Origin: Medicago truncatula
Taxonomy: Eukaryota; Streptophyta; Magnoliopsida; Fabales; Fabaceae
DNA length: 64,000 nt
Direction of reading: 5' to 3'
Assembly (NCBI RefSeq): GCF_003473485.1
Contig: NC_053043.1
Location: 23,709,936 to 23,773,935, forward strand
Part shown: one piece after another, positions 8,397 to 57,861 of the stretch
How the letters are laid out: each line of letters starts with the position of its first letter
Position numbering within the stretch: the first letter of the stretch is position 1
The notes under the pieces: generated by a model
Told to the model about the DNA's origin: nothing
Seen by the model: the letters and a program-made list of their open reading frames with translations, nothing else
Databases searched by the model: none
Made by a program: the position numbers and the translations under genes

Positions 8397-8478
8397 ATTT
8401 ATTTGAAGGGATTTACTGGAATTTGAACCCAAAATCTCCTGATCCAAATCAGTCTTTTGACTATCAGACCATTTCCTT
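8397..8478 (-). repeat. tRNA-like (SINE-type) fragment
   Basis: On the minus strand, GGTCTGATAGTC resembles a pol III A box and GGTTCAAATTCC resembles a B box, about 40 bases apart. No 3' tail or target duplication is visible, so this is probably an old SINE fragment. It is next to a MITE. Confidence 0.4.
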
Positions 8479-29841: not shown

Positions 29842-30136
29842 TAATACCACAAACCCTTGCACGTTATTATCACCAATCCCAACCCTTGGATCCGTTCTCA
29901 ATCTAATATCCCTTGATTTTCGTGTCATCATCTTTCAAAAAGTCTTCTCCCATAAAAGAAAGTGCTTTTCCAAACCTCTTCTTCCTTCCACCACTTCTCC
30001 TACCTAGCTCTAACTCCTCTCCCTCACCCAACAATTTTCCCACCAAAATTCTCAACCCTCAATGTAGCAGATGTGAAACACACAAGAAAAAAAAACCCTA
30101 AACATAAAAAAAAAAAGTGATTAATTTATTAAGCAA

Positions 30137-36430: not shown

Positions 36431-38022
36431 GGCAACGTTTACGGTAGGAGAGGGCAATATGTCCCCTACCGTAGGAGATCATATAAAAGAGTTTTTTTTT
36501 TATTTTTTTTTACAACTAAATTGACATGTGTTTGTTGGTGGTTGGCAAAATAGATACTAGTGTTGTATTTTTTATTTTTTTTAGAAATGATGCATCCTCC
36601 GGTCACTATTATAAGCAAAAATCTACATTTTAGATTCATTCATTAAATGATGTATGCGGTTTATAATACAGACTACATACATCATTTAATGAATGTATCT
36701 AAAACGTTGATTTTTGCTTATAATAGTGACCAGATGGTGTATTTGTACAACCACTTTATGATAACTTTTTGACAACCTTCTCTCTCATACTCACGTTATA
36801 CTCTTATTTTCACTCTTTCTTTTTCTCTCTCCATTATTTTTACTAATGAAAAGAGAGAGAAAAGAAGTTGTTTGTCTCAAATGGATGTTCAAATATCACT
36901 ATTTTTTTTAGGGAGTTACATGCATGTTAGTTGTATTTAAGTAATGAGAAATAATATTTAAACAACTATTTTTTGATAATTATTGTGACAATTTTCTCTC
37001 TCATGTTTACATTAATTTTTTATTTTCTCTCTATTGTTTTTGTGTCAATACCTCATTTTCTTTATAAAATTTTGGTTGTCTCGAAAGTTGTCATATAAAT
37101 GGATGTTCAAATAACACAACTCTTAAATAATTCTAGAGTCAATTTTGTGATTTCCTTCTTAAATAAAATAATATTTTTCCACCTAGAGTATATAGACAAT
37201 ATTTTCCAATTCGTTCAACAATAAAACATTAATATAATGACTTTATATAATGAGTGGTAGTTGAAAATATATTAACGTTTTTACTGTAGATTGAATGTGA
37301 GTTTTTTTTAAATGATTGAATATTATTAGGTTTTTTAACAATAAATTATATTAGCAATAACAGGGTAATCTCCTTAGCACAAAGTGTATAAATGAAACCA
37401 CATATAATTACAAGCTGTCAATCCAAGAATACACAAAAAGGTTAATCGATACCCAAGCACCTAAACGGGTTCAACCACGAGCCATAAACAAAATTGACCT
37501 TATTAACTTTAAGCCACAATAACAATAAATACTTTACTTTTTCTAATAACTGTGGAATGGTATTTTCTAAATTTGTAAACAATACTTTTTCTAATAACAA
37601 TAAGTATACCATTGTGTTCGTTCCACACAATCCAAATATTATTAGTTGAATGGTCAATAGAGAGGAAGGTTAAATAAGTTTTTAGTCCCAATGAATATAC
37701 CGAATATTGTTTTTAGTCCTTAGAAGAAAAAAAAATTGACATGTTGGGTCATATAATTTTTCCAACAATGCCAAAAACACCCTTTATTAAATGTGATTTT
37801 AAAATCAATTGAATTTTTTAAATCATTCTATATGTTTAAAAAATAGAATTCTAGTGAATCACATTACCTGAAATCTCAGTTATTCAAAAGCTTCATCCTA
37901 TATTCAATGATTAATATCTATTTTTTTTAAAAAAAAATCTCATTTTACAAAAAAAAAAAAAAGAAAAGAAGAAGTCTCCTACGGTAGGAGACCTAAGGAT
38001 GTCACCTACCGTAGCCTTGGCC
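36431..38022. mobile_element. Non-autonomous Mutator-like element, 1.6 kb
   Basis: Flanked by a perfect 9-bp duplication TAAGATTCG (36422-36430 and 38023-38031). Terminal inverted repeats of about 48 bp begin GGCAACGTTTACGGTAGG at the left and, read inversely, GGCCAAGGCTACGGTAGG at the right. Both also contain CCTACCGTAGGAGA. No transposase is encoded. It carries a nested palindromic MITE (36593-36741) and a weak LINE-like scrap (complement of about 37550-37660, IWIVWNEHN). Outside its ends the host sequence looks tRNA-like. Confidence 0.87.
36593..36741. mobile_element. Palindromic MITE nested in the Mutator-like element
   Basis: The left arm CCGGTCACTATTATAAGCAAA is mirrored by GCTTATAATAGTGACC at the right. 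It is the best preserved of the three copies in the window. Confidence 0.8.
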
Positions 38023-40371: not shown

Positions 40372-40897
40372 GTAAATTGGTACCACATGCATTGTCGTAT
40401 CGTTGTATTGTCGAGGAGTCTTAGTGGTGTTGTCGAGTAGTTGCATGAGTCATTGTTGTTGGTTGTAAATACCATTGTTGTTGATATGTTGATTATGAAA
40501 TATATATTTATATTGAATAGTTATTATTATGTTAGGGTGTTAGATTCAATTGATGAATTTATTATCTATATTTATTGTTGTGAATCTCACCCCTTCTGCT
40601 TGAAAATGTTGCCCTTCCTATGGGTAACTTGCAGGTGATCCTTATTGTTGTTTTAATTACTTGGATGAGGCTTTCATGCCAGAATTTTATGGAGAATTAA
40701 ACAGTTGATGTTGTTGTTGTTTTTAATGAAAATACTCCGCTGCAAGGTTTTGGTGAAACTAATAAAGTTTGTGGTTTATTAAATAGTTTTATATTCTATT
40801 TAAGAAAATTTGAAAAGTAGTGTGACATGCCCGTTTGGGATATACTCTGATGTATTATTTAACATTTAATTGCTTTGGGATAACGGGGTGTTACAAT

Positions 40898-40909
40898 TGG
40901 TATCAGAGC
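40898..40909 (+). other. Primer-binding site of the gypsy element
   Basis: TGGTATCAGAGC, complementary to the 3' end of plant initiator Met-tRNA, lies 2 bases after the LTR end. Confidence 0.88.
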
Positions 40910-40982: not shown

Positions 40983-41060
40983 TTTGTTGTCCTGATTGTT
41001 GTTTGTTGTGTACTTGGTATGAACTGGTTGGAGTATAACCATGTTCATATTAATTGTTTT
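40983..41060 (+). pseudogene. Gypsy pol fragment (end of protease region), left of the Ogre-like insertion
   Basis: It reads VLGMNWLEYNHVHINC in one frame, the block between protease and reverse transcriptase in chromovirus-type gypsy pol. The frame continues after the 12.3-kb insertion at 53367. Confidence 0.72.
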
Positions 41061-43718
41061 TGTGCTCGCGATTTTCGGATGTCAAACCATTTAATTGATT
41101 TGAATCGTCGATCTTTGAACTCTCGATTTTTATTCTTGGGAAGGGAAAAAATGAGTAAAAACCCTTATCGAGACTTTGGATTCGGGGGTTGGTTACGCGA
41201 AGGGAAGGTGCTAGCATCCTAAGCGTCTATGGTATTCCATAGGAACCTCTTACCTAGATTATCTTGTGCTAAGTTACTCGTTTATTTGAAAAATTATTGC
41301 CTAATGTCTAAGTGAAAGAATGGAGGGAGAAGAAGTATGTTTTTGGTTATTTTTATTTGATTTGGAAGGACAAGTCCTCTGCCTACGTACCCTTTTGGGA
41401 AAGGGATCAAAACCGACGTAGTTCCACTCAAAAATTTCTTTGGTGGGTTAGGTTGATTTTAAGATTTTTTGAAAATGATTTTAAGAAGAGAAAGAGGCCT
41501 CAAGGCATGAGATAAAAAAAATGAGTGAGGTTGATTGATTTTAAATTTTGAAAATGATTGAAGTTGAATTAAAATTGATAAAAAAATTTGATTAAGAAAA
41601 TAAAGGGAAAATGTTGCTAAGAAAAAATATTTTTGAATTTGACATATTTGATTTTTTTTGAAAATGATTTTTTTCTAAACTAACGGTGAAAACTAACGTA
41701 ACGTCGTAAAAATTAACGGAAAGCGGTAAATAAAATGTGGTAGTGTCGGTGCATGTGTCGGTGCTTGTGTTACCTACATTATTACATCAATTCCTAAATA
41801 CAACCCTAAAGCCTTTATGCCAAAATAAAATGCAAGAAATAAAATTACATCAATTCCTTATTTATACACACTAAGTCAATGACAAAATAAAATTATGAGA
41901 AAATTAAATGTGCATGCTACGATTCAAAACAAAAATTAACTCGTTAGTAAGCATAAGAAATATCATGGTGAATGAGAAATAAGAAATAAAAAGCAAGGAA
42001 TTAAGACAAACAACAATTAAGATCATCATATAAGAAATAAACGAAATTTTTTTTTTAAGAGAAAACAAATAGGATGGATTTTTAAAATTAGAGAAAATTA
42101 AAATGATGAGAACAATATTTTAGAATTTTTCTAAACATAAAAATGTCAAAAAAAGTGTAAAGACAATTAAAAATAAGAAATAAAAAATTGGCTCAGCAGG
42201 ATTTAATCTAGACCGTTGGATGAATCCAGAGGTCCAGATCTGAATCTCAAGATCTCATCACAGCTACTGGATCAAAAATCCAGGGTTTAAAAGACGAAGG
42301 TGTACGAAATTAACATAGGCTGTAGAGTATAGGATTAAAGTGAGGGAGGAGGTATAAAAACATGTTGCTGCTGCTGTGACTTCATTTTTTACAAAGAAAC
42401 TTCTCACTAAAAATATTTTACCCACTTCTCTCTAGAAAAACAGCCAGCGCCCCCTTTCCCCTTTCTTCTCCGGCGAAGCAACAAATTTCCGGCGCGGTGG
42501 CCGGTGGTGGCACCACCGCGCCGGAGTTTCAAAACTCACCCTTTTCAAAAAAAAATTACATATTTGAATATCCTTTTTCTTCCTCTACTCAAATCCGGAC
42601 TAAGATTTTCAAAACAAACCACATACAAACCTAGATCTAGAGTGCAAGATTCAAAAAAAAAGAGCAAAAAAAGTACCTCTACTCTCTCTCTTCTTCTCCG
42701 GTTCGTTTCTTCCCTCTGGTTCGTGGTTCCCTCTTCCGATTCGGTTTAGTTCTTACTTGCTTTTGTGATTATGTTTGAGTTTTGTGAGTTTATACACGAT
42801 TCGGATCTGTTTGTTACTGTTTGTGGCCGTTTGTGATGTTTGGATGATGATGATTTATGTGTTAGTGTGGAGCGATTCGAGGTTTGGTGAAAGGATACGA
42901 AAATGATTGTTAAAAGAATGGTTCACATGATTTTCGAATTTGAAATGTTCATGAAGTTCATGATTTTTTCTGGTTTTTTTGAGAGTTTGATCTAAAAATG
43001 TGGAGAGAGGATATGAATTTAGTGTTTGTGAACTGTTGTGGCTGTTGATTGATGTATCAGTGTAATAATTTCTGTGCAGCCCATTTCCCAATGATTGACA
43101 GGCTTTTATAGTGACAAATTAGGGTTGGCTCTGGTACAGATCAAAGACCAAAATACCCCTGCAGCTGAGACTTGGAGAAAAAGATTTTAACAAATAAATA
43201 AATAAATAAAATAAAAACAAAATGCATAAAATAAATAAATAAAAATAAAAAAGAAAAGAAAAGAAAAGGAAGGAAGTCACTCACGTGACTTTCACTTCTT
43301 TGTTTTTTTTTTCTAAAAAAATAAAATAAAATAATAATAAACAAACTAACCTAAAAAAAAAGAAAATAAAAAGTCCCTTCGAAATCTGACATGAGGTACT
43401 TCAAAGTATCCTCCCTGCCGAAATTTCGGTTGAAATGATTAATAAAATACGCCTTTTAACATACAATTAGCCATTTTAAAATGACTTGCCTGTTATGACT
43501 AAAAGGATTATAAAATGCGTTTATAAAAATGCAAATGGAGTGATTTTAAATGTTGTAAAAAATGCAAGCGAGGACTTAAATGCAAGATGAAAGTTTTTAA
43601 ATGATTAATGACGAAAAACACGAGTTTTAAAAGGTAAAAAAACGAATAAAAGAGAATCTGAACTATTAAAAAATGTGGACAAAAAAGATTTCAAATGGTC
43701 CAAATTTGGGGTATGACA
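41061..43718 (-). repeat. 3' LTR of the Ogre-like element
   Basis: On the plus strand it reads TGTGCTCGCG...GGGGTATGACA. It is the same as 50703-53361 apart from A-run lengths near 42670, 43243 and 43355. An A/T-rich end and an (AAAT)n stretch near 43195-43240 are included. Confidence 0.93.
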
Positions 43719-43984
43719 GATGCCCCTATTTAAGTTTCTTCGTCACGAAAGGTTTAAAAGGGAACCTTTTAAACCAAAGGGTCGAGGAGACTTAAATATA
43801 TAAAAAACGCCAATTTTGGACCGTTTGAAATGCCAGGGATGTGATGCTGATGAATGTGATAATATGACTGAATATGATGTAAGCATGAAGGTAAAGATGA
43901 TGCAAAGACTGACTGGGAGACAAATGGATAGGTATCACTGGGGAAGGAAATGATAGGTAAGTATAAATGACATTGTTTCAAGGC

Positions 43985-45046
43985 GAAAGTAAAGACATGA
44001 TTGGCCGACGAGTGGCGAAAGTAAAGGCGTGATTTGCCGACGAGTGGCGAATGTAACGACATGATTTAGCCGACGAGTGGCGAAAGTAAAGACATGATTT
44101 AGCCGACGAGTGGCGAAAGTAAAGACATGATTTAGCCGACCAGTGGCGAAAGTAAAGACATGATTTAGCCGACAAGTGGCGAATGTAAAGACATGACTAG
44201 CCGACAAGTGGCGAAAGTAAAGACATGATTTAGCCGACAAGTGGCGAAAGTAAAGACATGATTAGCCGACAAGTGGCGAAAGTAAAGACATGATTTAGCC
44301 GACAAGTGGCGAAAGTAAAGACATGATTGAGCCGACAAGTGGCGAAAGTAAAGACATGATTTAGCCGACGAGTGGCGAATGTAAAGACATGACTAGCCGA
44401 CAAGTGGCGAAAGTAAAGACATGATTTAGCCGACAAGTGGCGAATGTAAAGACATGACTAGCCGACAAGTGGCGAAAGTAAAGACATGATTTAGCCGACA
44501 AGTGGCGAAAGTAAAGACATGATTAGCCGACAAGTGGCGAAAGTAAAGACATGATTTAGCCGACAAGTGGCGAAAGTAAAGACATGATTGAGCCGACAAG
44601 TGGCGAAAGTAAAGACATGATTGGGCCGACAAGTGGCGAAAGTAAAGACATGATTGGCCGACAAGTGGCGAAAGTAAAGACATGATTGGGCCGACAAGTG
44701 GCGAAAGTAAAGACATGATTGGCCGACAAGTGGCGAAAGTAAAGACATGATTGAGCCGACAAGTGGCGAAAGTAAAGACATGATTGGCCGACAAGTGGCG
44801 AAAGTAAAGACATGATTGAGCCGACAAGTGGCGAAAGTAAAGACATGATTGGCCGACAAGTGGCGAAAGTAAAGACATGATTGAGCCGACAAGTGGCGAA
44901 AGTAAAGACATGATTGGCCGACAAGTGGCGAAAGTAAAGACATGATTGAGCCGACAAGTGGCGAAAGTAAAGACATGATTGGCCAACGAGTGGCGAAAGT
45001 AAAGACATGATTGGCCAACGAGTGGCGAAAGTAAAGACATGATGGA
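43985..45046 (-). repeat. Tandem array of about 32 units of 32/33 bp near the 3' LTR
   Basis: The unit is GCCGACAAGTGGCGAAAGTA + AAGACATGATT plus one or two variable bases. From about 44590 to 44990, 33-bp and 32-bp units alternate regularly, giving a 65-bp higher-order period. The edge units are more diverged (CGAGT, GAATGTAA variants). Arrays in the 3' untranslated region just before the LTR are known in Ogre-type elements as sources of satellites. Confidence 0.93.
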
Positions 45047-45684
45047 CCGACAGGGTTTGCTAACATTGTGGGATAGCGCACACACGGTAAAAAATAAAGG
45101 CAAGACAGACCATTGGCATTTGCTAAAAGCAAAGCCTCCGGTGAAAGTAAAGACAATGTAAAGCTTGGTATCAGGGGAGTGACTTGATAAAGATAAAGTT
45201 GAGGGGAACAAGGAATTTGTCTGAAGACAAAGGGGAAACGTATAGACTGATTACTGGTGAGACCTGCCCCTTTGGAATGTGTTTGATTTGATGACATTTT
45301 GGAGTTAGACACACTGGGGGTGATATCTAAGGATGTTGCAATAAGTCATAGGGTAAAAATGCAACTATGTATGAATGATACTTATATGCGTGCTATGTAT
45401 GCATGAATGAATAAGTATGTATGAGACTCATAGGACGACATAATGGTAAGATTGTTGAAGCAAGACTGGGCAGGTCTACAAGGAGAATGGCCCGACATCA
45501 CTGGACGAACACTCGAAACCTTCAATGGGGACAAAGTCACGGGGAATGAATCAACCATCGTTGGGGTACAGCTTTCACAATCCGGGGTAGAAGTCGCCAT
45601 TTCACCAATGCAACACCGTATTTCCATGCTTGAATAGTCATTGCCTTTTTGTATATATATTTCTTGAAATCCCTAACTTTTGCC

Positions 45685-45796
45685 TGGATCATCCTTTCAG
45701 ATTTTTTTTTGATCCACCGGGAGACATTTTTCTTTTTTTCTTTTTGTATGCCCCTAATTTTTACCTGGACCGCCCTTTCGAGTTTTCGATCCACTA
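45685..45796 (-). repeat. Hairpin cluster 1 (copies A and B)
   Basis: Copy A (45685-45716): outer stem TGGATC/GATCCA, inner sense stem ATCT/GGAT with loop GAAA. Copy B (45766-45793): outer TGGATC/GGTCCA, inner CTC/GGG with loop GAAA, all read on the minus strand. A long T run follows on the plus strand. Confidence 0.8.
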
Positions 45797-46335
45797 GGGC
45801 GCTTTCTTTTTTTTTTTTTTTTTTTTTTTTTTGCAATGACTATTTCTTCTTCGTTGAACCTGCTAGTTTCGGACCAACTGTTGACACATACTTATATATT
45901 TTCAAGTTGTTCGATGGAGAACATGTCGTTTGAAATACTGAAGAAGCAAGGTAAAATGGATTCCCAAACTGTTCGATGAAGAACGTGCCATTTGAAATAT
46001 TGTGGATTGGTGACATCTCTGGATCAGCCACACTGGTGATGACACTTTTAATGAGATACAATTGAAATAAGACACTGGATGGTAATGCAATTTATGTATA
46101 AATGATATTTGTATGCATGTTAGATGTGCATGAATGTTATATGCATGTATATGTATATGAATGTATGAATATACGCATGAAACTTGTAGGACCGTATGAC
46201 TGTATATAACAGGTGAAACTGACAAACAAGACTGGATAGGTAAGATAGGAGGTTGAACGACATCACAGTACAAACACTCAACAATCTTCATTGGAAATAA
46301 TATCGCTGGAGATGAGTCAAATTAATGTTGGGGTA

Positions 46336-46610
46336 AAGCACGATATCAACCCACTAGTAGGGGAAACAAACCATTAATCAGACCACTGAAAGGAGAATGC
46401 CCCATAACCAAACCACTTGAAGGGAGAAAGCCCCATAATCAAACCGCTTGAAGGGGTAATGACCCATTAATCAAACCACAAGCAGAAATTGCCATTAATC
46501 AACCCACATGCAGAAATCGCCTTTAATCAAACCACTAGAGAGGTACCAACCCATGTTTTGGCAGAAGTCGCCATACATCAAACCATAGGCGGAAGTTGCC
46601 ATTTGTAAAC
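46336..46610 (-). repeat. Degenerate ~30-36-bp repeats around AATCAAACCAC
   Basis: About eight units containing AATCAAACCAC-like text on the plus strand, each followed by a small inverted repeat such as GGGT/ACCC or GGC/GCC. Several contain GAAGTCGCCA-like decamers, the inverse of the primer-site start. Confidence 0.65.
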
Positions 46611-46717
46611 CAATACCGAGTGCATTCTTCCATTTGACCCTCTTGCATTGTGATGTCTCTGTCTTTGTTGTTTTTTTTTCCATTTTTTTTATATTTTTTG
46701 AATCCCTAACTTTTGCC

Positions 46718-46866
46718 TGGACCGCCCTTTCGGGTTTTCAATCCACCGGGAATATATTCTCTTTGTTTGTATGCCCCTAATTTTTGCCTGGACCGCCCTT
46801 TCGGGTTTTCAGTCCACCGGGACGCTCATTTTTGGCTTAAGCCGCCCTTTTGGGTTTTCGACTTAA
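46718..46866 (-). repeat. Hairpin cluster 2 (copies C, D and E)
   Basis: C (46718-46745) and D (46789-46816) have sense outer stems TGGAT/GTCCA and TGGAC/GTCCA with inner CCC-GAAA-GGG. E (46837-46866) has outer TTAAGT/GCTTAA with inner CCC-AAAA-GGG. The asymmetric internal loop (GAAAA on one side, CG on the other) is kept. Confidence 0.82.
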
Positions 46867-46867
46867 T

Positions 46868-46901
<34 letters not shown>

Positions 46902-47497
46902 ACAGAGGTCATCTCTCAGCTTTTGGTCATGCCAACCTTGCAGAGTTTAACTGTCCTTGAGACGGATGTTGATGTATGTTTCACCCACTCATAAATTCAA
47001 AGAAGATGTACTTGTTGATTATGCTTTTCAGAAGACATGATAAAAGTTTTTTTTTTTTTTTTTAAAAGATTTTTTTTTTGAATTTTTTTGCTTTAGGTAT
47101 TAACATCAAAAATAGAAGAAAAATTTGCAAACAGAATAAATGAGAATTTTAAATAAATGGGCACAAGCTCAAGTTAATGTAAATGGAATGGTGGCCTGCC
47201 AAAGGCGTGGTTCCACAGATTTTAAAAGTTTGGAAAAATGGTAATTATATGGAAAAGGTACGTTGAACACAATAACCACTGTTTCCTCTACCAACTTTGA
47301 ATTCCACTGTTTTGAGTCTTTGATTTGCAGACGCTTCAGATCGGATGTCCTTTAACAGCTAAGATGCCCCAGATGAATCATATCTGATTTGATGCAATTA
47401 CCTTGCCATGAGTCGGAGATCTTTTGACGGCTGAAATGCCCCATATGAGTCATGTCCGACCAGATGCAGTTACTTTGTCATGATCCTTAACTTTTGC

Positions 47498-47656
47498 ATA
47501 GATCGCCCTTGCGGGTTTCAACCTATCAGGATAATCATTTTTTTATATTTTTTTTTTTTATATGTCTCTAACTTTTGCATGGACCGCCCTTTTGGGTTTT
47601 CAGTCCATCGAGACGCTCTTTTTTGCCTAAGCCGCCTTTTCAAGTTTGCGACTTAT
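47498..47656 (-). repeat. Hairpin cluster 3 (copies F, G and H)
   Basis: F (47498-47526): outer ATAGGT/ATCTAT, inner CCC-GCAA-GGG. G (47579-47608): outer ATGGAC/GTCCAT, inner CCC-AAAA-GGG. H (47628-47655): outer TAAGT/GCTTA, inner CTT-GAAA-AGG. All are on the minus strand, with the same internal loop type. Confidence 0.8.
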
Positions 47657-48621
47657 CGAACTTTTTCCTTTTAACAGAGTATTTCTTGACTGCATCGGTA
47701 TTCACAGGACATACCAGTTTACCCTCATTCTTTGTATTAGGCATTCATTGCCCCTGGAACTTGGTTAAATCAGATAGTATAACTATTGAGCACAAGGCCA
47801 CTCTCTTGACATTCATGGGGACGAGCCTTCTCTTATTGAAAACTTGCTTCATGCTTTTGATACAACTTTTCACGCCATACGGCAGTGACACTTTGAAATT
47901 CAATCAAGCTTAGCTTTCATTGGAACTCCCGTTGACAGGACTTTGACCTTCATGTGAGGCATTGCCTTTATGTTGTAGACTGAGGGATGGAGGGGGGGTT
48001 GCCCCTGCTGAAATGTTCACTTGAAGTACAATATCCTTGCAAGGAAAATGGTGGCATCTCGTGCCAGTCTTTGTACATGAAAGTCCTCTTCTAGACAATC
48101 TCTTTTGATATTTGCAGCTTCGACGGCCAAGATGCCCCAGTAGGCGAGAAATATCAGTGGAAGCTTCTTCATCATCCTCTTATTCAGCCTCGGATATAAG
48201 GAACTCAAGGTCGAGAGGGAGTATATGATTAAAGTGTTCAACGGGTTTATTAATGCATGATTTGATTGTTGATATAAACATTATGATTATGCAGATATGT
48301 GGAAATGATTAAAGAAAAAGATTCTCTTTTTTTTTTGGTTTTTTTTTTTTGTATTACCATTTTTTCCAGAAAAAGCACAAAATAAAACAAAGTCGGGATC
48401 AAGCGACCTTTCACTAATGATGAAAATACATAAAGCAAAAATCCCTAAACAAATTCACTCTCGCCTCGGGTGGGACGAAAGGATTTTTTTTTGGAAAAAC
48501 ATAAAGCAACAAACAAACATACTAATTGAACAAAAGAGTAGTAGAAATAACCATCAGCAAAGACCCAACTGTAGCTAAACATTCCATGTGTCAACACAAG
48601 GTCCAAAGATCCGATAGCGGA

Positions 48622-49338
48622 TTAACTTGCGTATTCAGATCCAAACTCTTCGAAAGGTATGAGATCATCTTCAATCAGTTTCTGGACCGCAATCTTCAAA
48701 GAAAAACAGCGCTCAACATCATGACCTTGTGCCCCTTGATGGAAAACACAAAAGAGATCAGATCTCCATCGAGCCGGCAATTTCTTCGGTATCGGAGGAG
48801 GTGGCCTGGTTTGGACAAGGTTCCTCTCAAGCAAATAGGGAAGCAACTTTGCATATTCAATTGGAATTGGATCAAATTTTATTCTTGGAGCCTGTAGTCG
48901 AGGTTGTTGTTGATATTGTTGAAATTGGGACTGATAACCCAGATCTTGGACCGCGTTCATGATGGGCATAACAGCGGAAACAGAGAGAGGAGCCAGATAT
49001 TGTTGTTGGCTTGGTTGGAACTGGGGTTGATAACCCGGATCTTGAACATTGGTGATGGGCGTAACAGCAGCAACAGAGTGAGAAGCCAGATGTTGTTGTT
49101 GACGTAGCACTTTTATATCTGGGTCTTCGAAGGACCAGGCGTTATTTTCAATCAACTTCTGAACTTTTTCCTTCAAAGGATAGTACTGCTTAGTGTCATG
49201 ATCTGGTGCCCCTTGATGGAAGGCACAATTGCGGTCAGGACGATACCCGAGAGGCAGCGTATTTGGCACATGAGGAGGTGACAAGGTTTGAACAAGGTTC
49301 GTCTTCAGCAAAATGGGAAGCGAATCCGCATATTTCAC
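48622..49338 (-). CDS. gag C-terminal segment with two zinc-knuckle-like repeats
   Basis: 238 codons. Two related blocks of about 70 residues carry LPxLLxxNLVQT, a Pro-rich stretch and a C-x2-H-x5-H-x4-C motif. The second is intact (C197, H200, H206, C211). In the first the last ligand is Tyr (C38, H41, H47, Y52). Between them is a 32-residue Gln-rich unit duplicated in tandem (about residues 80-111 and 112-143). The central gag domain that normally lies between coiled coil and knuckle is missing. The frame is open upstream to the TAG at 49432, so the first Met need not be the start. The segment probably binds RNA or partner gag proteins, which is inference. Confidence 0.75.
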   Translation of the reverse strand: MKYADSLPILLKTNLVQTLSPPHVPNTLPLGYRPDRNCAFHQGAPDHDTKQYYPLKEKVQKLIENNAWSFEDPDIKVLRQQQHLASHSVAAVTPITNVQDPGYQPQFQPSQQQYLAPLSVSAVMPIMNAVQDLGYQSQFQQYQQQPRLQAPRIKFDPIPIEYAKLLPYLLERNLVQTRPPPPIPKKLPARWRSDLFCVFHQGAQGHDVERCFSLKIAVQKLIEDDLIPFEEFGSEYAS

Positions 49339-49431
49339 AGGAAACGGGTCACACTGAGACGCTTTTTGGGCCTGATTTTGAGGTATAAGCGGTTGAGGAG
49401 ACTGATTTTGAGGGATAAACCGCTGAGAACC

Positions 49432-49665
49432 CTATTGTCGAGACCGTTTCATGCATATTGGCTGACATAGTGCCTGAGGCCTTTGTTGGACAAGCGGTGG
49501 ATCCTTTGTAGCCATCAATGAAGATACAAGGCTAGTTAACTTCTCTACCTCAGCCCGAAGTGTTGTTACTTCTCTACGAAGCTCGTGGACCTCTTGCTCA
49601 AGTTGATCCATCTTTTGTGTTTGCACGAGTGTCTGCATATGTGAGCCGAACTTGGATGAAGACAT
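49432..49665 (-). CDS. gag N-terminal coiled-coil segment
   Basis: 77 codons starting MSSSKFGSHM. It contains a heptad-rich segment (MDQLEQEVHELRREVTTLRA and on to LTSLVSSLMA) typical of the N-terminus of legume Tat/Ogre-type gag. It ends at a TAG at 49432-49434 in the context CAA-TAG-G. The downstream gag piece is open in the same frame, so one stop codon separates them. Confidence 0.72.
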   Translation of the reverse strand: MSSSKFGSHMQTLVQTQKMDQLEQEVHELRREVTTLRAEVEKLTSLVSSLMATKDPPLVQQRPQALCQPICMKRSRQ

Positions 49666-50680
49666 CTGACCACTTTACTAATGAATTGACCTTTTTATGG
49701 AGAAGACACAGTGTGAGATACAGACTAGAAACTATGAATGCAAAATGATGCATGATATGCTTATGCAAAAATAGATTTTTTTGAAGGACTTGTTAAAGTG
49801 AAATGTAAACATGGCAGAGGAATATGGTTTCATTTGAAAATTGTCAAGATATTTACAATAGGTTTCTTTTTCAAAAGGTAAGAACGAAACCAAGGAAGAA
49901 GTTCTTTAACATAAGCTAAAAGCTTAGTTAAAATTTTGGAAGTTGTATTTCTTGGTGTTCATTCTTACAAGGTCCATATCCGTGATGTTTACAAAAACTT
50001 GTCTAAGTCCTTCAATTTTTTTATTTATGGAAAAAGTTGTTTATGAATGAATGCATGTATGCATGATTATGCTAAGTGGATAGAATACATGGTGAGGGTA
50101 AGTTCCACAATGTTGGAGTCAATGGTAACAACGTCATTTGGTAAGGACTATGGTTTCAAATGTACCTGTATCACGGGTTCTACCAAGGTTCCCAAAGTCC
50201 TCGACCACTTCCGAATATTATCGGATACCGAGAAAACACCCGGTCCAACAACGTTCGTAGGAAAGTCTCATTTGAGTGTAGTATCGCGTATCGACTAATT
50301 CCGAGAAAACACCCGGTTAGCCACCGCACTACGTCCTAAAAGGCCAAGATGGGTTAAGGGTTACTAAAGGTTCTTAGCTTCATTGGAAGATTAAAAGTAA
50401 TAAAGTCTAAACGTGAAAACACACGCCGACATTTATTACTTCAATCTCCTTTGCTAAGTGTGGTTATCTCACGTGTGACAAGACACGAGTATACTCTTGG
50501 TATGCCACTATGAGTCTACCACTCCTATCTTACATTTCCCTCAAGCTCGGGTGTAGAGCTTATTTTCTCACCCCTCACGTAATAAAGTAAACATGTAAGC
50601 AAAATATTTACAAGATATAAACAAATAATAAAGCACCAAATAAAGAAAGTAAGGTGGGTTTAACCCGCATAGGACCTAAG
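49666..50680 (-). other. Leader between primer site and gag in the Ogre-like element
   Basis: About 1 kb without a supported frame. CCGAGAAAACACCCGGT occurs twice (about 50228 and 50301). A long untranslated leader is usual in this lineage. Confidence 0.5.
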
Positions 50681-50698
50681 TCCCCAGTGAAGTCGCCA
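50681..50698 (-). other. Primer-binding site of the Ogre-like element (Arg-tRNA type)
   Basis: Minus strand TGGCGACTTCACTGGGGA, 4 bases from the LTR. The TGGCGAC start matches the 3' end of a tRNA ending GTCGCCA, as in Arg-tRNA. Similar decamers recur inside the element. Confidence 0.8.
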
Positions 50699-50702
50699 TT
50701 TC

Positions 50703-53361
50703 TGTGCTCGCGATTTTCGGATGTCAAACCATTTAATTGATTTGAATCGTCGATCTTTGAACTCTCGATTTTTATTCTTGGGAAGGGAAAAAATGAGTAA
50801 AAACCCTTATCGAGACTTTGGATTCGGGGGTTGGTTACGCGAAGGGAAGGTGCTAGCATCCTAAGCGTCTATGGTATTCCATAGGAACCTCTTACCTAGA
50901 TTATCTTGTGCTAAGTTACTCGTTTATTTGAAAAATTATTGCCTAATGTCTAAGTGAAAGAATGGAGGGAGAAGAAGTATGTTTTTGGTTATTTTTATTT
51001 GATTTGGAAGGACAAGTCCTCTGCCTACGTACCCTTTTGGGAAAGGGATCAAAACCGACGTAGTTCCACTCAAAAATTTCTTTGGTGGGTTAGGTTGATT
51101 TTAAGATTTTTTGAAAATGATTTTAAGAAGAGAAAGAGGCCTCAAGGCATGAGATAAAAAAAATGAGTGAGGTTGATTGATTTTAAATTTTGAAAATGAT
51201 TGAAGTTGAATTAAAATTGATAAAAAAATTTGATTAAGAAAATAAAGGGAAAATGTTGCTAAGAAAAAATATTTTTGAATTTGACATATTTGATTTTTTT
51301 TGAAAATGATTTTTTTCTAAACTAACGGTGAAAACTAACGTAACGTCGTAAAAATTAACGGAAAGCGGTAAATAAAATGTGGTAGTGTCGGTGCATGTGT
51401 CGGTGCTTGTGTTACCTACATTATTACATCAATTCCTAAATACAACCCTAAAGCCTTTATGCCAAAATAAAATGCAAGAAATAAAATTACATCAATTCCT
51501 TATTTATACACACTAAGTCAATGACAAAATAAAATTATGAGAAAATTAAATGTGCATGCTACGATTCAAAACAAAAATTAACTCGTTAGTAAGCATAAGA
51601 AATATCATGGTGAATGAGAAATAAGAAATAAAAAGCAAGGAATTAAGACAAACAACAATTAAGATCATCATATAAGAAATAAACGAAATTTTTTTTTTAA
51701 GAGAAAACAAATAGGATGGATTTTTAAAATTAGAGAAAATTAAAATGATGAGAACAATATTTTAGAATTTTTCTAAACATAAAAATGTCAAAAAAAGTGT
51801 AAAGACAATTAAAAATAAGAAATAAAAAATTGGCTCAGCAGGATTTAATCTAGACCGTTGGATGAATCCAGAGGTCCAGATCTGAATCTCAAGATCTCAT
51901 CACAGCTACTGGATCAAAAATCCAGGGTTTAAAAGACGAAGGTGTACGAAATTAACATAGGCTGTAGAGTATAGGATTAAAGTGAGGGAGGAGGTATAAA
52001 AACATGTTGCTGCTGCTGTGACTTCATTTTTTACAAAGAAACTTCTCACTAAAAATATTTTACCCACTTCTCTCTAGAAAAACAGCCAGCGCCCCCTTTC
52101 CCCTTTCTTCTCCGGCGAAGCAACAAATTTCCGGCGCGGTGGCCGGTGGTGGCACCACCGCGCCGGAGTTTCAAAACTCACCCTTTTCAAAAAAAAATTA
52201 CATATTTGAATATCCTTTTTCTTCCTCTACTCAAATCCGGACTAAGATTTTCAAAACAAACCACATACAAACCTAGATCTAGAGTGCAAGATTCAAAAAA
52301 AAAGAGCAAAAAAAAGTACCTCTACTCTCTCTCTTCTTCTCCGGTTCGTTTCTTCCCTCTGGTTCGTGGTTCCCTCTTCCGATTCGGTTTAGTTCTTACT
52401 TGCTTTTGTGATTATGTTTGAGTTTTGTGAGTTTATACACGATTCGGATCTGTTTGTTACTGTTTGTGGCCGTTTGTGATGTTTGGATGATGATGATTTA
52501 TGTGTTAGTGTGGAGCGATTCGAGGTTTGGTGAAAGGATACGAAAATGATTGTTAAAAGAATGGTTCACATGATTTTCGAATTTGAAATGTTCATGAAGT
52601 TCATGATTTTTTCTGGTTTTTTTGAGAGTTTGATCTAAAAATGTGGAGAGAGGATATGAATTTAGTGTTTGTGAACTGTTGTGGCTGTTGATTGATGTAT
52701 CAGTGTAATAATTTCTGTGCAGCCCATTTCCCAATGATTGACAGGCTTTTATAGTGACAAATTAGGGTTGGCTCTGGTACAGATCAAAGACCAAAATACC
52801 CCTGCAGCTGAGACTTGGAGAAAAAGATTTTAACAAATAAATAAATAAATAAAATAAAAACAAAATGCATAAAATAAATAAATAAAAATAAAAAAAGAAA
52901 AGAAAAGAAAAGGAAGGAAGTCACTCACGTGACTTTCACTTCTTTGTTTTTTTTTTCTAAAAAAATAAAATAAAATAATAATAAACAAACTAACCTAAAA
53001 AAAAGAAAATAAAAAGTCCCTTCGAAATCTGACATGAGGTACTTCAAAGTATCCTCCCTGCCGAAATTTCGGTTGAAATGATTAATAAAATACGCCTTTT
53101 AACATACAATTAGCCATTTTAAAATGACTTGCCTGTTATGACTAAAAGGATTATAAAATGCGTTTATAAAAATGCAAATGGAGTGATTTTAAATGTTGTA
53201 AAAAATGCAAGCGAGGACTTAAATGCAAGATGAAAGTTTTTAAATGATTAATGACGAAAAACACGAGTTTTAAAAGGTAAAAAAACGAATAAAAGAGAAT
53301 CTGAACTATTAAAAAATGTGGACAAAAAAGATTTCAAATGGTCCAAATTTGGGGTATGACA
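50703..53361 (-). repeat. 5' LTR of the Ogre-like element
   Basis: The matching LTR, 2659 bp. In sense orientation it drives the element toward lower coordinates. It lies directly beside the primer-binding site at 50681-50698. Confidence 0.93.
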
Positions 53362-54078
53362 GTTTTAATAAGACGATGTACTTTTCTTTTGCTGAAGAAG
53401 AGAGTGAAGCTGAGTTTGTGACTACGAAGCAGTTGAAGGAGTTGTTGAATGAAGGTACTCCAATATTTTCCTTGATGGCATACTTGTCGTTGGAGAATCA
53501 AGCTGTGATTGATAGGTTGCCAGTTGTGAATGAATTTCCAGAAGTTTTTCCTGATGAGATTCCAGATGTGCCACCAGAGAGGGAGGTTGAATTTGCAATT
53601 GATCTTATTCTCGGAACGAAGCCGGTGTCGATGGCACCTTATCGTATGTCGGCACCCGAGTTAGCTGAATTGAAGAAACAGTTGGAGGACTTGCTTGATA
53701 AGAAATTTGTAAGACCAAGTGTTTCACCGTGGGAGCGCCGGTGTTGTTGGTTAAGAAGAAGGATGGTAGCATGAGGTTATGCATTGATTATCGTCAGTTG
53801 AACAAGGTTACGATAAAGAATAGGTATCCACTTCCGAGGATTGATGACTTAATGGATCAGTTAGTGGGTGCACGTGTGTTCAGCAAAATTGATTTGAGGT
53901 CAGGTTACCATCAGATTAAGGTGAAGGATGAGGATATGCAGAAGACGGCCTTTAGGACACGATATGGTCATTACGAATATAAGGTGATGCCTTTCGGTGT
54001 TACTAATGCGCTTGGTGTGTTTATGGAGTATATGAACCGAATTTTCCATGCTTACCTGGATAAATTCATGGTTGTGTT
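53362..54078 (+). pseudogene. Gypsy pol: reverse transcriptase, N-terminal half
   Basis: The fragment starts with an acidic linker, then has the FPDEIPDVPPEREVEFAIDL block, the PYRMSAPELAELKKQLEDLL block, a frame break near 53731 (one G appears missing in the SPWGAP region), then [20 protein letters not shown] and [15 protein letters not shown]. It ends just before the catalytic aspartates, where the solo LTR is inserted. It is non-functional as it stands because of the frameshift and the insertion. Confidence 0.9.
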
Positions 54079-56854
54079 TGTAACGCCGTATTTCTATTAA
54101 AGCAATAAAACATGCGAATAATAATAATATTCAAGAAATAGTCGCTACTTTCACCAAATCAAAGGAAATCAAAATCGAATCAACGGTCAACATGCATGTA
54201 TATAAAACCTCATCAGTCGCAGCGGATACAAAATTCTTATACATCAAAGCATACATGTCACGTGATCTCAAAAATGCATAAGCATAAAACTCTCCAAGTC
54301 CGACACATGGACAAAATCTCAAAATATAAAATAATCCAACAAGATCTAGAGCTAACATACAAAATCCCTAGATCAGAGCCGACTCTACTCTAAGACCCGA
54401 TAGTGGAGAAAGCTCCCACTATCCAGCAACATCAGAAACTCACCAAGCTACTACTCCTGCACAACGTCTACTCACCCATACAGGCAAGTAGGCGATTAAA
54501 AACCACTGGGGGGAGTATTACATCAACATAATCAATAACACAGATAAGCAGGAATAACATAATCAAATATCGTGTAATGAATCAAATAGATAAATTTCAT
54601 ACATACATTATCACCACAATCCAAGTCTCACCGACATATATTTAACGAACACATCATCATCAATAATCATCATTCACAATTCCACCACTTTCATGAGTTT
54701 ATCAATTCACATAGTTAATCATGACATGACACAACAATCCATCAAATACAAACATCACCATTAATCACTTACAACCACAAGTACATCAAGTAATTTCACA
54801 ACTAGGACTCATGTCACCTCATGATATGATCCTAGACACAACACCTATATGCATGCGGTACCGGTCATCACCAATATTTAGGCCGTCGCCCATCATCACC
54901 AAAATCATCACCAATTGGATATATAAAAATATCTGTCATCACCAAAATATGTATGCATGAACATATGACTCAATAATAATGCATATGTCCACACAACAAC
55001 TCACCATATCATCACCAATATTTATTTGCATTTATGCAATCACATCAATAATTCATCACCTCATGCATAATTAATATTATATCATAGTAAACAATGTATA
55101 TGGACTCACCAATATCATCTCATTCACATAATTCATATCAAATACATCACCTTGAGATAACTTCTCATTCAACATTCAATTAATGATCAAGTACTTCCAT
55201 ATAGTCATACAAAACTAGTCATGAAAGATTTATAAGGTGATTGGCTTAAAGGATATTTTCATCAATGTTCGTCTCTCTTTGACATTTCACAAGAATATTC
55301 CATTTTCAAAACCAAAATCAATTAAAGCTCAAGGAAACCAATCACTACCATTTTCAGTAATCATATAATCTCTATTCTATCTTAATCCCATTCCATTTCC
55401 TTGAAGATCCCATTTTCCGGAAAAGTCAACGTTCTTGAGCAATTTTCAAAGTTAAGTTTTGATTTCACAAACCAAGTCCAAATTTCATTCAAGGTGATGT
55501 TCCAGTATGATTAAGTATGAGACTAATGATTATACAAGTTAAAAGAAGTGTTTTAAGAAGTTCGGATTGGCCCTAAGAAGTTCGGAACAAAAATCAAAAG
55601 GTGCTGAAACTGGGCACGTTCGCTTACCCGTTCGCTTAAGCGAACTCAAGTCAGTAGCTTCTGGGCTGTTCGCTTACCCGTTCGCTTAGCGTTCGCTTAA
55701 GCGAACAGTCATCAAACATCAACTTTGCAGTGTCGCTTAAGTGACCATTCAAAATTCTGTAGAAAAAATGTTACGGGTTTCACCCCTTTTTTCATCCAAA
55801 ACTCTCAATTTTGATCTCCCAATGCCCAAACATGTTTCCAAATATTGTTTATAGGTCAAATAACTCACAAGGACACTCAAAAACACATTGAACATGAAAA
55901 TCAATCTCACTTTTAGCCAATTCACCAAATCAACCCATTTACATAAAACACCAACAACAATTCAAATTCTCATCATCAATTCATGAATATGCATACCCAA
56001 GCCATGATTCATCAACAACAACATCAATTAACAACAACAACATCAATTGAACATGGTTCTCATCATAATTCAACAACAACATAGCAAAATTCACCACTTG
56101 AGCACAATTTTCACAACTTCACATTTTTACATAATTGAACATGTAATTTCACCAACAATCATACAATTATCATCAATTCATGCATACAAACATAACATCA
56201 TAGTTAGAGCACGAATTTAGCAACAATTATCCATTTATTCAATTCAACCCATATTCATACAACAAATGAGAAATTGCAATAAATGAACATGATTATGATG
56301 AAGACTAACCCCCTTACATTAGATAATGATTAATCCAAACCTAGGCTTCACTTTAGCTCCTAAGCTTACCCCAATTTGATTCTTCAAGCTCTTCTCTTCA
56401 CCACTTTCTCTCTCTACCTCTCTCTAGAATGATCTTATCAAGTGAAAATGAATGATATTTTCCAATACAACTCATATGGTATCTCCCTTAATGGGCTTAA
56501 CTTAATTTCTAGTGGGCTTAACCCATTTCTATTCAACTCGCAAAGTTTCTTCACACACAACGGTATAACATAAATAATGGTAAAACATCACTAACGGTAA
56601 AATCTCAATTTACTCTAGTAACTTAATGAAATAACTATTCTCACTAATCACTAAAAGTAATTCTCACCAAAACTTATAATTTTATCCGTTCTCACAAAAT
56701 GACCAAAATACCCCTAAGTCTAAAATGACTAAAATACCCTTCTAACACGAAAATCTATGTAATGCACCCAATGATGAATAATCACACACAAACACACATA
56801 AAATACATAATAAAAGTAATTAAAATAAATCTAGCTAAAAATCGGACTGTTACA
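54079..56854 (-). mobile_element. Solo LTR, 2.8 kb, inserted in the RT catalytic box
   Basis: On the plus strand it reads TGTAACGCCG...CGGACTGTTACA, flanked by a perfect 5-bp duplication GTGTT (54074-54078 and 56855-56859). It is a reverse-orientation relative of 1301-4118: the minus-strand start TGTAACAGTCCGATTTT corresponds to TGTAACAGCCGATTTT. It holds no internal domain. The palindrome GTTCGCTTAAGCGAAC occurs at 55630-55645 and 55691-55706. Confidence 0.88.
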
Positions 56855-57612
56855 GTGTTTATTGATGACATCTTGATTTATTCTAAGACTGAAGAAGAGC
56901 ATGCAGAACATCTGAAGATTGTCTTGCAAGTGTTGAAAGAAAAGAAGTTGTATGCCAAGTTGTCAAAATGTGAGTTCTGGTTAAGTGAAGTAAGTTTTCT
57001 TGGCCACATTATTTCTGGTAGTGGTATTGCAGTTGATCCATCGAAAGTTGATGCAGTATCACAATGCGAGACTCCGAAGTCAGTGACTGAGATTAGAAGT
57101 TTCTTGGGTTTGGCTGGTTATTACCGCAGGTTCATTGAGGGATTTTCGAAGTTAACACTTCCGTTGACTCAATTGACCTGTAAGGGTAAGTCTTTTGTGT
57201 GGGATGCTCAGTGTGAGAGTAGTTTCAATGAATTGAAGCGAAGGTTGACAACTGCTCCTATTTTGATTTTACCGAAGTCGGAAGAACCTTTTGTTTTTTA
57301 TTGTGATGCATCCAAGTTGGGCTTAGGTGGTGTTTTGATGCAAGATGGTAAAGTGGTAGCTTATGCTTCTAGGCAGTTGAGGATTCATGAAAAGAATTAT
57401 CCTACACATGATTTGGAGTTAGCTGCGGTGGTTTTTGTTTTGAAAATTTGGAGGCATTATTTGTACGGTTCCAGATTTGAAGTATTTAGTGATCACAAAA
57501 GTTTGAAATATTTATTTGATCAGAAGGAATTGAATATGAGGCAGAGGAGATGGCTTGAGTTGTTAAAAGACTATGATTTTGGTTTGAATTACCATCCGGG
57601 TACATGTTCATA
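56855..57612 (+). pseudogene. Gypsy pol: RT C-terminal half and RNase H
   Basis: Resumes with the FIDD catalytic box and [14 protein letters not shown], then [18 protein letters not shown], the [12 protein letters not shown] connection block, and an RNase H domain starting [14 protein letters not shown] with ASRQLR and the [10 protein letters not shown] block. It ends at LNYHPG, where homology stops abruptly. Integrase and chromodomain are absent. Confidence 0.9.
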
Positions 57613-57861
57613 TTTTATAATCTGAACAGATGAAATTCTACAGGAAAAAATCGAACCATAACAGTTGCATGTTGAGGGAATGAGACCTAACTTTTAGTTT
57701 GATGTTTGATAAAGCTTCAAATGTGATGATTTTGAGCAAAAAAAAAAACTCAAAGACGAAATGTAAGTGTAAAACGGTAAAAATGGAAAAAGTTATTGTT
57801 TTCGTTTTTATATTTATACAGTTTTCAGATTTTAGAATTCAAAAGACGATTTAAAAAAATA
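57613..57861. other. Short unassigned interval right of the truncated gypsy
   Basis: No LTR, gag-pol homology or gene is seen. The gypsy breakpoint near 57612 abuts AT-rich unique-looking DNA. Confidence 0.45.

Follow-up and report, generated by a model that had tools for sequence, protein, structure and literature searches.

A 64,000-nucleotide stretch of the Medicago truncatula genome (contig NC_053043.1, positions 23,709,936 to 23,773,935; hereafter "the window") contains a long terminal repeat (LTR) retroelement whose sense strand, the minus strand of the window, bears eight copies of a small three-tiered hairpin. We find that these hairpins are a family of structured RNA elements in the sense transcript of Ogre-type Ty3/gypsy elements in this genome. 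Their stems change letters and stay paired, and in relatives of the window element they lie downstream of the pol stop codon. The array is most likely a protein-binding one that would act in cis on the genomic RNA of the element. All of the evidence comes from one genome of 430 Mb, in which many copies are near-identical.

All eight copies named in the original prediction, which had been made from the letters of the window, were found on the minus strand where it had placed them. Each follows one plan. An outermost helix of 4-5 bp (P1), absent from the earlier description, encloses every unit, followed by an internal loop with mostly GR on its 5' side and NGCAAAARUUA or a shorter sequence (9-11 nt) on its 3' side, a 7-bp helix (P2), a bulge of four A residues, a 3-bp inner helix (P3) and a GNRA-type tetraloop. 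The bulge departs from this plan in copies 1, 3 and 8. With P1 included, the eight units span 45668-47662 altogether and are grouped into two clusters of three and one cluster of two:

47611-47662, minus strand: H1, P1 GTTC/GAGC, P2 TAAGTCG/CGGCTTA, bulge CAAA, P3 CTT/AGG, loop GAAA
47563-47614, minus strand: H2, P1 GTCTC/GAGAC, P2 TGGACTG/CGGTCCA, four-A bulge, P3 CCC/GGG, loop AAAA; abuts H1; fold z-score -3.89
47482-47532, minus strand: H3, P1 ATCCT/AGGAT, P2 TAGGTTG/CGATCTA, three-A bulge, loop GCAA
46821-46872, minus strand: H4, P1 CTCAT/ATGAG, P2 TAAGTCG/CGGCTTA, loop AAAA
46772-46823, minus strand: H5, P1 GTCCC/GGGGC, P2 TGGACTG/CGGTCCA, loop GAAA; abuts H4
46701-46752, minus strand: H6, P1 TCCC/GGGA, P2 TGGATTG/CGGTCCA, loop GAAA
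45749-45800, minus strand: H7, in the extra cluster, P1 GCCCT/GGGGC, P2 TGGATCG/CGGTCCA, P3 CTC/GGG, loop GAAA
45668-45723, minus strand: H8, in the extra cluster, P1 TCCC/GGGA, P2 TGGATCA/TGATCCA, eight-A bulge, P3 TCT/GGA, loop GAAA

Copies 1/2 and 4/5 are tandem units; the P1 helices of H1 and H2 adjoin without a spacer, and those of H4 and H5 are separated by one base. The predicted tally of five GAAA loops is correct, with AAAA in two further copies and GCAA in one. The outer stem had been described as 5-6 bp with an internal loop of GAAAA against CG; it is paired as claimed, but P2 is 7 bp long and the A residues form a four-nucleotide bulge on its 5' side. Each copy folds by itself into the predicted stem, bulge, stem and tetraloop, although the minimum-energy fold of copy 1 lacks the inner stem. 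The imperfect pairs are all G-U in the sense strand, as had been said, but the letters of P2 and P3 contain 12 such wobbles rather than eight, with no A-C and no other mismatches. Our model of the unit, R1, recovers seven of the eight and misses H1. By minimum energy the sense fold is better than the antisense fold in 7/8 units, H4 being the exception (antisense -13.9, sense -12.7), and the mean z-score against shuffles is -2.0 for the sense strand and -0.5 for the antisense strand. These z-scores are modest and could not carry the case by themselves.

We searched the whole genome with a pattern that leaves all stem bases free and fixes only the AAAA bulge, a GNAA loop, and GCAAA with one loose flank position. 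This stem-agnostic pattern matched 4,432 places (2261 + 2171), compared to 301 (150 + 151) for a reversed control, and a loop-agnostic pattern gave 1678 + 1581 matches against 0 in its control. These counts are not independent, since the units of any one element are duplicates of each other and near-identical copies are numerous in the genome. Among 100 stem-agnostic matches listed, all on contig 1, 75 have a second match at most 1.5 kb away on the same strand; five of the remaining 25 are clearly units, and the others look like chance. Twenty further stretches were chosen from the genome pattern listings, one of these patterns including stem letters, and the finding of at least one unit in each is not a blind draw. 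A stem-agnostic scan of the twenty separates candidates by a clean gap in the number of paired positions, with 55 candidates at ten, 11 at nine, one at eight and ten at six or fewer. The units match none of the 4227 families of Rfam 15, either at E values up to 1 or at the gathering score. Contig collections that are essentially non-plant gave 0 matches to the units, a result uninformative about other plants.

The central claim of the original prediction, that the stems change letters yet stay paired, is borne out both in the stem-agnostic sample and in the twenty further stretches. Among the matches listed, 29 unique array-member sequences with ten stem pairs each contain 247 Watson-Crick pairs, 30 G-U, 6 A-C and 7 others; the corresponding counts for all 75 array members listed are 661, 75, 6 and 8. 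We built an alignment of 44 units (A1; 42 distinct) in which 40 of the 44 rows had been picked with at least 8/10 P2/P3 positions paired, so that only its P1 counts are unselected. In A1, 89.8% of cells are paired and the covariation score is 0.485, compared to 0.294 for shuffled alignments (0/500 reaching it); sliding the alignment by one column reduces pairing to 49%. A second alignment (A2) comprises 103 model matches, 77 of them distinct, in the twenty further stretches, which were not used in building the model. Here 92.0% of cells are paired and the score is 0.417 against 0.256 (0/500), although A2 leans towards the model because its matches were found and aligned with it. A covariation score of this type can exceed shuffles without structure when sequences are related. 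Stricter counts are weak: double-sided pair changes were reached by 9/500 shuffles in A1 and 57/500 in A2, and further pair types by 40/500 and 14/500, respectively.

P1, not used in picking rows for A1, differs between units (GTCTC/GAGAC, ATCCT/AGGAT, GTCCC/GGGGC, TCCC/GGGA, GTTC/GAGC and CTCAT/ATGAG in the window; AGCGT/GTGCT and AGCGT/GCGCT in relatives). When the 3' flanks of 34 distinct units were redistributed among them and the best-offset search was repeated in the same way, none of 20,000 permutations reached the observed value of 147 (mean 127, maximum 139). On 24 units of equal loop length, RNAalifold predicted P1 de novo and found double compensation in 8/14 pairs. On all 44 units it predicted P2 and P3 and missed P1, the shorter 3' loop of H1/H4-type units having shifted the register. 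A better covariation argument than any shuffle score is change at an equal array position between families. The P2 helix of H3 reads TAGATTG/CGATCTA, TAGGTTG/CGATCTA or TAGATCG/CGATCTA in some families and TGAGCCG/CGGTTCA or TGAACCG/CGGTTCA in others.

The original prediction had also reasoned that wobbles confined to one strand point to a fold of the sense RNA, and had named stems broken as often as loops as a finding that would speak against it. The first point holds in the twenty further stretches, where departures from Watson-Crick pairing in P2 and P3 number 92 G-U, 6 A-C and 9 others; once two columns in which U-G is usual are set aside, 19 G-U stand against 4 A-C (binomial P 0.0026). 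To control for mutation that favors one strand, we counted singleton substitutions in the non-hairpin sequence of six related loci and found 55:40 in the same direction. A mild background strand bias therefore exists, far short of 92:6 and nearer to 19:4. On the second point, stems are broken less often than loops change. Averaged over columns, the entropy of the A bulge amounts to 0.18 bits and that of the loop to 0.29, and no column of GCAAAA exceeds 0.16; P1 (1.19) and P2 (0.72) are more variable and nonetheless stay paired. Fixed unpaired letters on helices of free sequence form a pattern suggestive of a protein-recognition site.

The Ogre-like label given to the window element is supported by a relative, L039, that shows the Ogre gene order. 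L039 is a 10-kb stretch with open frames for an open reading frame (ORF) upstream of gag (2-1123, DUF7745, E 5.8e-85), a gag-protease of 1109 amino acids and an RT-RH-aRH-INT polyprotein of 1170 amino acids, RT being reverse transcriptase, RH RNase H and INT integrase. In the latter we identified RT_RNaseH (424-526), RVT_3 (599-709) and rve (884-981), with aRH between RH and INT. The gag-pro and pol frames, counted stop to stop, are separated by 253 nt, and the 339 phase-compatible GT/AG pairs listed are not diagnostic of an intron. Against this relative, the window element consists of the following parts:

41056-53366, minus strand as sense: LTR element with both LTRs present and without pol
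41061-43718, minus strand: 3' LTR, with the target-site duplication AAAAC at 41056-41060
50703-53361, minus strand: 5' LTR, with the target-site duplication AAAAC at 53362-53366
48622-49431, minus strand: gag-pro remnant, with 37-55% identity to L039 gag-pro at 48649-48894 and 49123-49410 (tblastn)
47679-48105, minus strand: pol stub, a degraded remainder of the pol C-terminus immediately upstream of H1, with 30-43% amino acid identity to L039 pol 995-1168 (tblastn)

The LTRs are 99.85% identical, with one mismatch and three gap openings in an alignment of 2665 columns, and the element is recently inserted. The 5-bp target duplication AAAAC flanks it on either side, and a stretch resembling a primer-binding site (TGGCGACTTCACTGGGGA) was read from the letters at 50698-50681, immediately inside the 5' LTR. 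The gag-pro remnant contains a zinc-knuckle-like stretch, identified by eye, and matched no Pfam family. Tblastn searches with the L039 proteins found no reverse transcriptase, RNase H or integrase beyond the pol stub, and the window element cannot copy itself because pol is lost.

The hairpins occupy a set position in these elements. In the window they lie between the pol stub and the 3' LTR, and in relatives they lie downstream of the pol stop. L039 carries six units in a 3+3 layout, the first P2 starting at 8446, 22 nt past the pol stop (8421-8423). By model matches, the same layout occurs in eight stretches (L010, L026, L039, L043, L050, L051, L057 and L058); other stretches have three to seven units, and several of them end within the array or lack H1, a unit to which the model is not very sensitive. 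H1 and H2, like H4 and H5, start 47-50 nt apart wherever this was computed, the H1-H2 distance often being 48. Tblastn places a pol C-terminus upstream of the array in the window and in 16/28 stretches (L001 and L003 overlap), and stretches without one may begin too late to include pol. In all nine stretches that keep the stop (L026, L039, L041, L046, L050, L051 and L056-L058), the P2 of H1 begins 15-43 nt past it. In the six window-type rows checked (the window, L001, L004, L006, L010 and L018), the stop of the former pol frame is lost and the frame continues into H1. A genome query with the pol C-terminus gave 1473 first-look candidates, of which 150 were scored; those listed are 100% identical, many in open frames of 1170 amino acids. 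At pol ends of the L039 family on contig 1, an H2 match lies at exactly 81 nt in 11/11 listed; these copies are near-identical and thus show a fixed position, not independent retention.

Between H2 and H3 of L039 (8558-8595), and likewise in L026, we observed a degenerate extra unit with P1 GCTC/GAGC and a side loop GGCAAGAAT. Its top reads TGAG-A-TTG-TACG-CAA-CTCA, a UNCG-type loop replacing GNRA. The stretch of ~170 bp between the hairpin clusters (window 47138-47304, L039 8744-8907) is 74% identical, though the elements have diverged.

We compared the six window-type rows with five rows in which pol is better kept, counting gaps. Mean identity is 0.76, 0.88, 0.79, 0.85, 0.82 and 0.61 for H1 to H6, 0.50 for the pol stub and 0.36-0.45 for the spacers. 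The recently inserted, pol-less window element has kept the array and carries an extra pair of units. With coding capacity gone and the hairpins remaining, the comparison of these sequences marks the array as a selected sense-strand RNA module.

Several other features lie in or around the element. The word GGGGCATYT stands at the junction of the polypurine tract with the 3' LTR (AAATAGGGGCATC followed by TGTCATACC; window 43726-43718, sense minus). It recurs just upstream of the pol stub (48138-48130), between the hairpin clusters (47442-47434 and 47370-47362) and in relatives. These internal words resemble copies of the polypurine tract, perhaps with enclosing stems; a second stem family near them scored 163 against a permuted mean of 146 (0/300 permutations), which is weak evidence. 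Repeats of 28-31 bp at 46375-46535 were considered as structured RNA and rejected, as shuffled sequences fold better than they do (z +2.41). A tandem array (43982-45043) of ~65-bp units (33+32 bp) in ~16 copies with 96% matches lies between the hairpins and the 3' LTR; passages of PMC7004042 describe tandem repeats of such kind in the 3' region of Ogre elements. The element is apparently nested in another Ty3/gypsy element, represented by flanks at ~40996-41056 and 53362-57622: the right flank contains RT_RNaseH at 56729-57622 and further L039 pol matches, and the flank at 41 kb resembles a protease stretch by eye. Elsewhere in the window, MIR2593 and MIR2617, both Medicago families, match above the Rfam gathering score (36609-36723 and 40815-40900), and an ORF at 30125-30766 encodes a KNOX1 domain (E 3.4e-19).

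What might such an array do? Judging from sequence, we tentatively favor, somewhat short of even confidence, a role in export or stability of the genomic RNA. An RNA-binding protein, supplied by the host or by the element, would dock on several identical sites of the array, the helices serving only to position the conserved unpaired letters for recognition, and the abutting H1-H2 and H4-H5 pairs could act as double sites. Docking would let the long, partly spliced RNA exit the nucleus and survive, like the 3' transport and stability elements of retroviruses, and pol-less elements may keep the array because they need the same RNA handling to be copied in trans. We place export or stability slightly ahead of packaging because known transport elements of the constitutive transport element (CTE) kind lie in the 3' region, because a functional Ogre intron has been reported, and because the model finds no sense-strand unit in the 5' leader. 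That intron is from M. truncatula, as reported in passages of PMC12786077, which also state that no direct studies of RNA export of plant LTR elements exist. A broader idea, to which we would give just under even weight, is that the reiterated GNRA/A-bulge hairpin just after pol represents the first case in plants of a retroelement RNA-handling code, which one protein would read on every Ogre-type transcript for export or packaging; the code would also make pol-less relatives mobile in trans, and compensatory changes would have preserved it in thousands of copies.

Several points weigh against an export or stability role. The sequence evidence expected under export, stability and packaging is the same. 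According to passages of PMC12786077, NXF1/TAP is not used by plants, and a direct copy of the mechanism of the Mason-Pfizer monkey virus (MPMV) CTE is therefore unlikely. Taken singly, the units surpass shuffles in stability by no more than a modest margin (mean z -2.0, weakest -1.14), P1 is paired in just 75-79% of cells in A1 and A2, and the evidence is drawn from a single genome. The strongest competitor is a packaging array, in which the element's Gag would bind the repeated hairpins to select genomic RNA and the array would be the ticket of pol-less elements into helper particles; we regard this as possible, if less probable. It fits the multiple identical sites and the retention and expansion of the array in a recent pol-less element, which it explains as well as export does. 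Nucleocapsid sites of retroviruses typically have G-rich loops, unlike the A-rich invariant letters here. In the interval from the 5' LTR to the gag remnant, model R1 found no sense-strand unit and one weak plus-strand match (49749-49780, E 0.15), though the same model also misses H1; this makes it less likely that the array is a psi and does not lower the case that it works in packaging. Packaging sequences described for Ty1 lie at the 5' end, but Ty3 relies on UTRs or POL sequences (passages of PMC4974528), and RNA of the Gag-less barley element BARE2 enters BARE1 particles (passages of PMC3735527), so that such parasitism occurs in plants.

The position after pol bears on another alternative, a stop-proximal element of the 3' untranslated region (3'UTR) that would shield a very long 3'UTR from nonsense-mediated decay or boost translation, in the manner of the stability element of Rous sarcoma virus and the 3' enhancers of plant viruses. 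The 15-43-nt offset in 9/9 stop-keeping stretches and the constant offset in 11/11 listed copies of one family agree with this model, but it is weakened by the six window-type rows, which have lost the stop, read into H1 and kept the array nonetheless. Moreover, the second cluster lies >500 nt further on, and GNRA loops pair poorly in the base-pairing used by known 3' enhancers; we consider this explanation unlikely. Far less probable still is that the hairpins have no RNA function and are young duplicated repeats or DNA palindromes whose pairing goes back to a small number of founders. The duplication of units within elements and the near-identity of many genome copies do make the counts interdependent, but same-position units differ on both sides between families and still pair (H3 TAGATTG/CGATCTA and TGAGCCG/CGGTTCA), P1 covaries separately (0/20,000), sense-side wobbles exceed the 55:40 background, and the flanks diverge. 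We give the least credence of all to a hidden coding repeat or a small-RNA precursor. The frequent H1-H2 distance of 48 nt is a multiple of three, but bulge length shifts by 1 nt, abutting pairs can also be 47, 49 or 50 nt apart, and the remaining spacings are not divisible by three; the units are ~50 nt long with large internal loops, and Rfam has no match at them.

Ogre-type elements account for a large share of certain legume genomes, 45% in the case of Lathyrus sativus (passages of PMC7004042). The array bears on how long, partly spliced Ogre RNA exits the nucleus and on how pol-less relatives are chosen for copying. As a short covarying module at a fixed place, it makes this question testable with reporters of 50-250 nt and with pull-downs, and the unit provides a sequence tag for grouping mobile pol-less elements.

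Compared to known systems, L039 resembles the Ogre lineage (Tat clade) in several respects: besides a gag-pro ORF and an ORF upstream of gag, it has aRH placed after RH and before INT, and non-coding sequence both in a gap separating gag-pro from pol and downstream of pol. Placement of an ORF upstream of gag distinguishes Ogre from Retand. The aRH arrangement is a trait of Ogre and Retand (passages of PMC6317226), and Retand has antisense ORFs downstream (passages of PMC11963269). The window element differs from this lineage in having lost pol, and the passages of the Tat/Ogre/Retand literature covered here mention no hairpin array. The main text of the Retand 3'-region paper (PMC11963269) contains none of the words "hairpin", "stem" and "secondary structure", and PMC7004042 lacks "hairpin" and "secondary structure"; the unit motif strings are absent from the full text of the papers searched, and titles and abstract openings in the literature searched describe no such array, subscription papers including several original Ogre papers being outside its scope. 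The array is a probable cis-acting retroelement RNA structure without an Rfam family or a description in the literature searched.

According to passages of PMC2829016, Sireviruses likewise bear conserved, repeated motifs in diverged plant elements, some of them between pol and the 3' LTR, but these motifs, carried by Ty1/copia elements, are DNA palindromes and copies of the polypurine tract rather than RNA hairpins. The packaging determinants of Ty1/Ty3 and BARE (passages of PMC4974528 and PMC3735527) are cis RNA needed by mini or parasitic elements; those of Ty1 differ in their 5' location, and in these passages none of the three is described as repeated covarying hairpins. Mouse intracisternal A particle (IAP) and musD elements bear the export structures RTE and MTE (passages of PMC12786077). 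Together with the MPMV CTE, these are cis RNA structures that carry unspliced retroelement RNA from the nucleus, a role that the hairpins would share. The CTE precedes the 3' LTR, and its A-rich internal loops are repeated. In contrast to all three, the elements described here bear six to eight short, clustered, three-tier hairpins without an Rfam match, and in contrast to the CTE they reside in plants, where the NXF1 route is not used (passages of PMC12786077).

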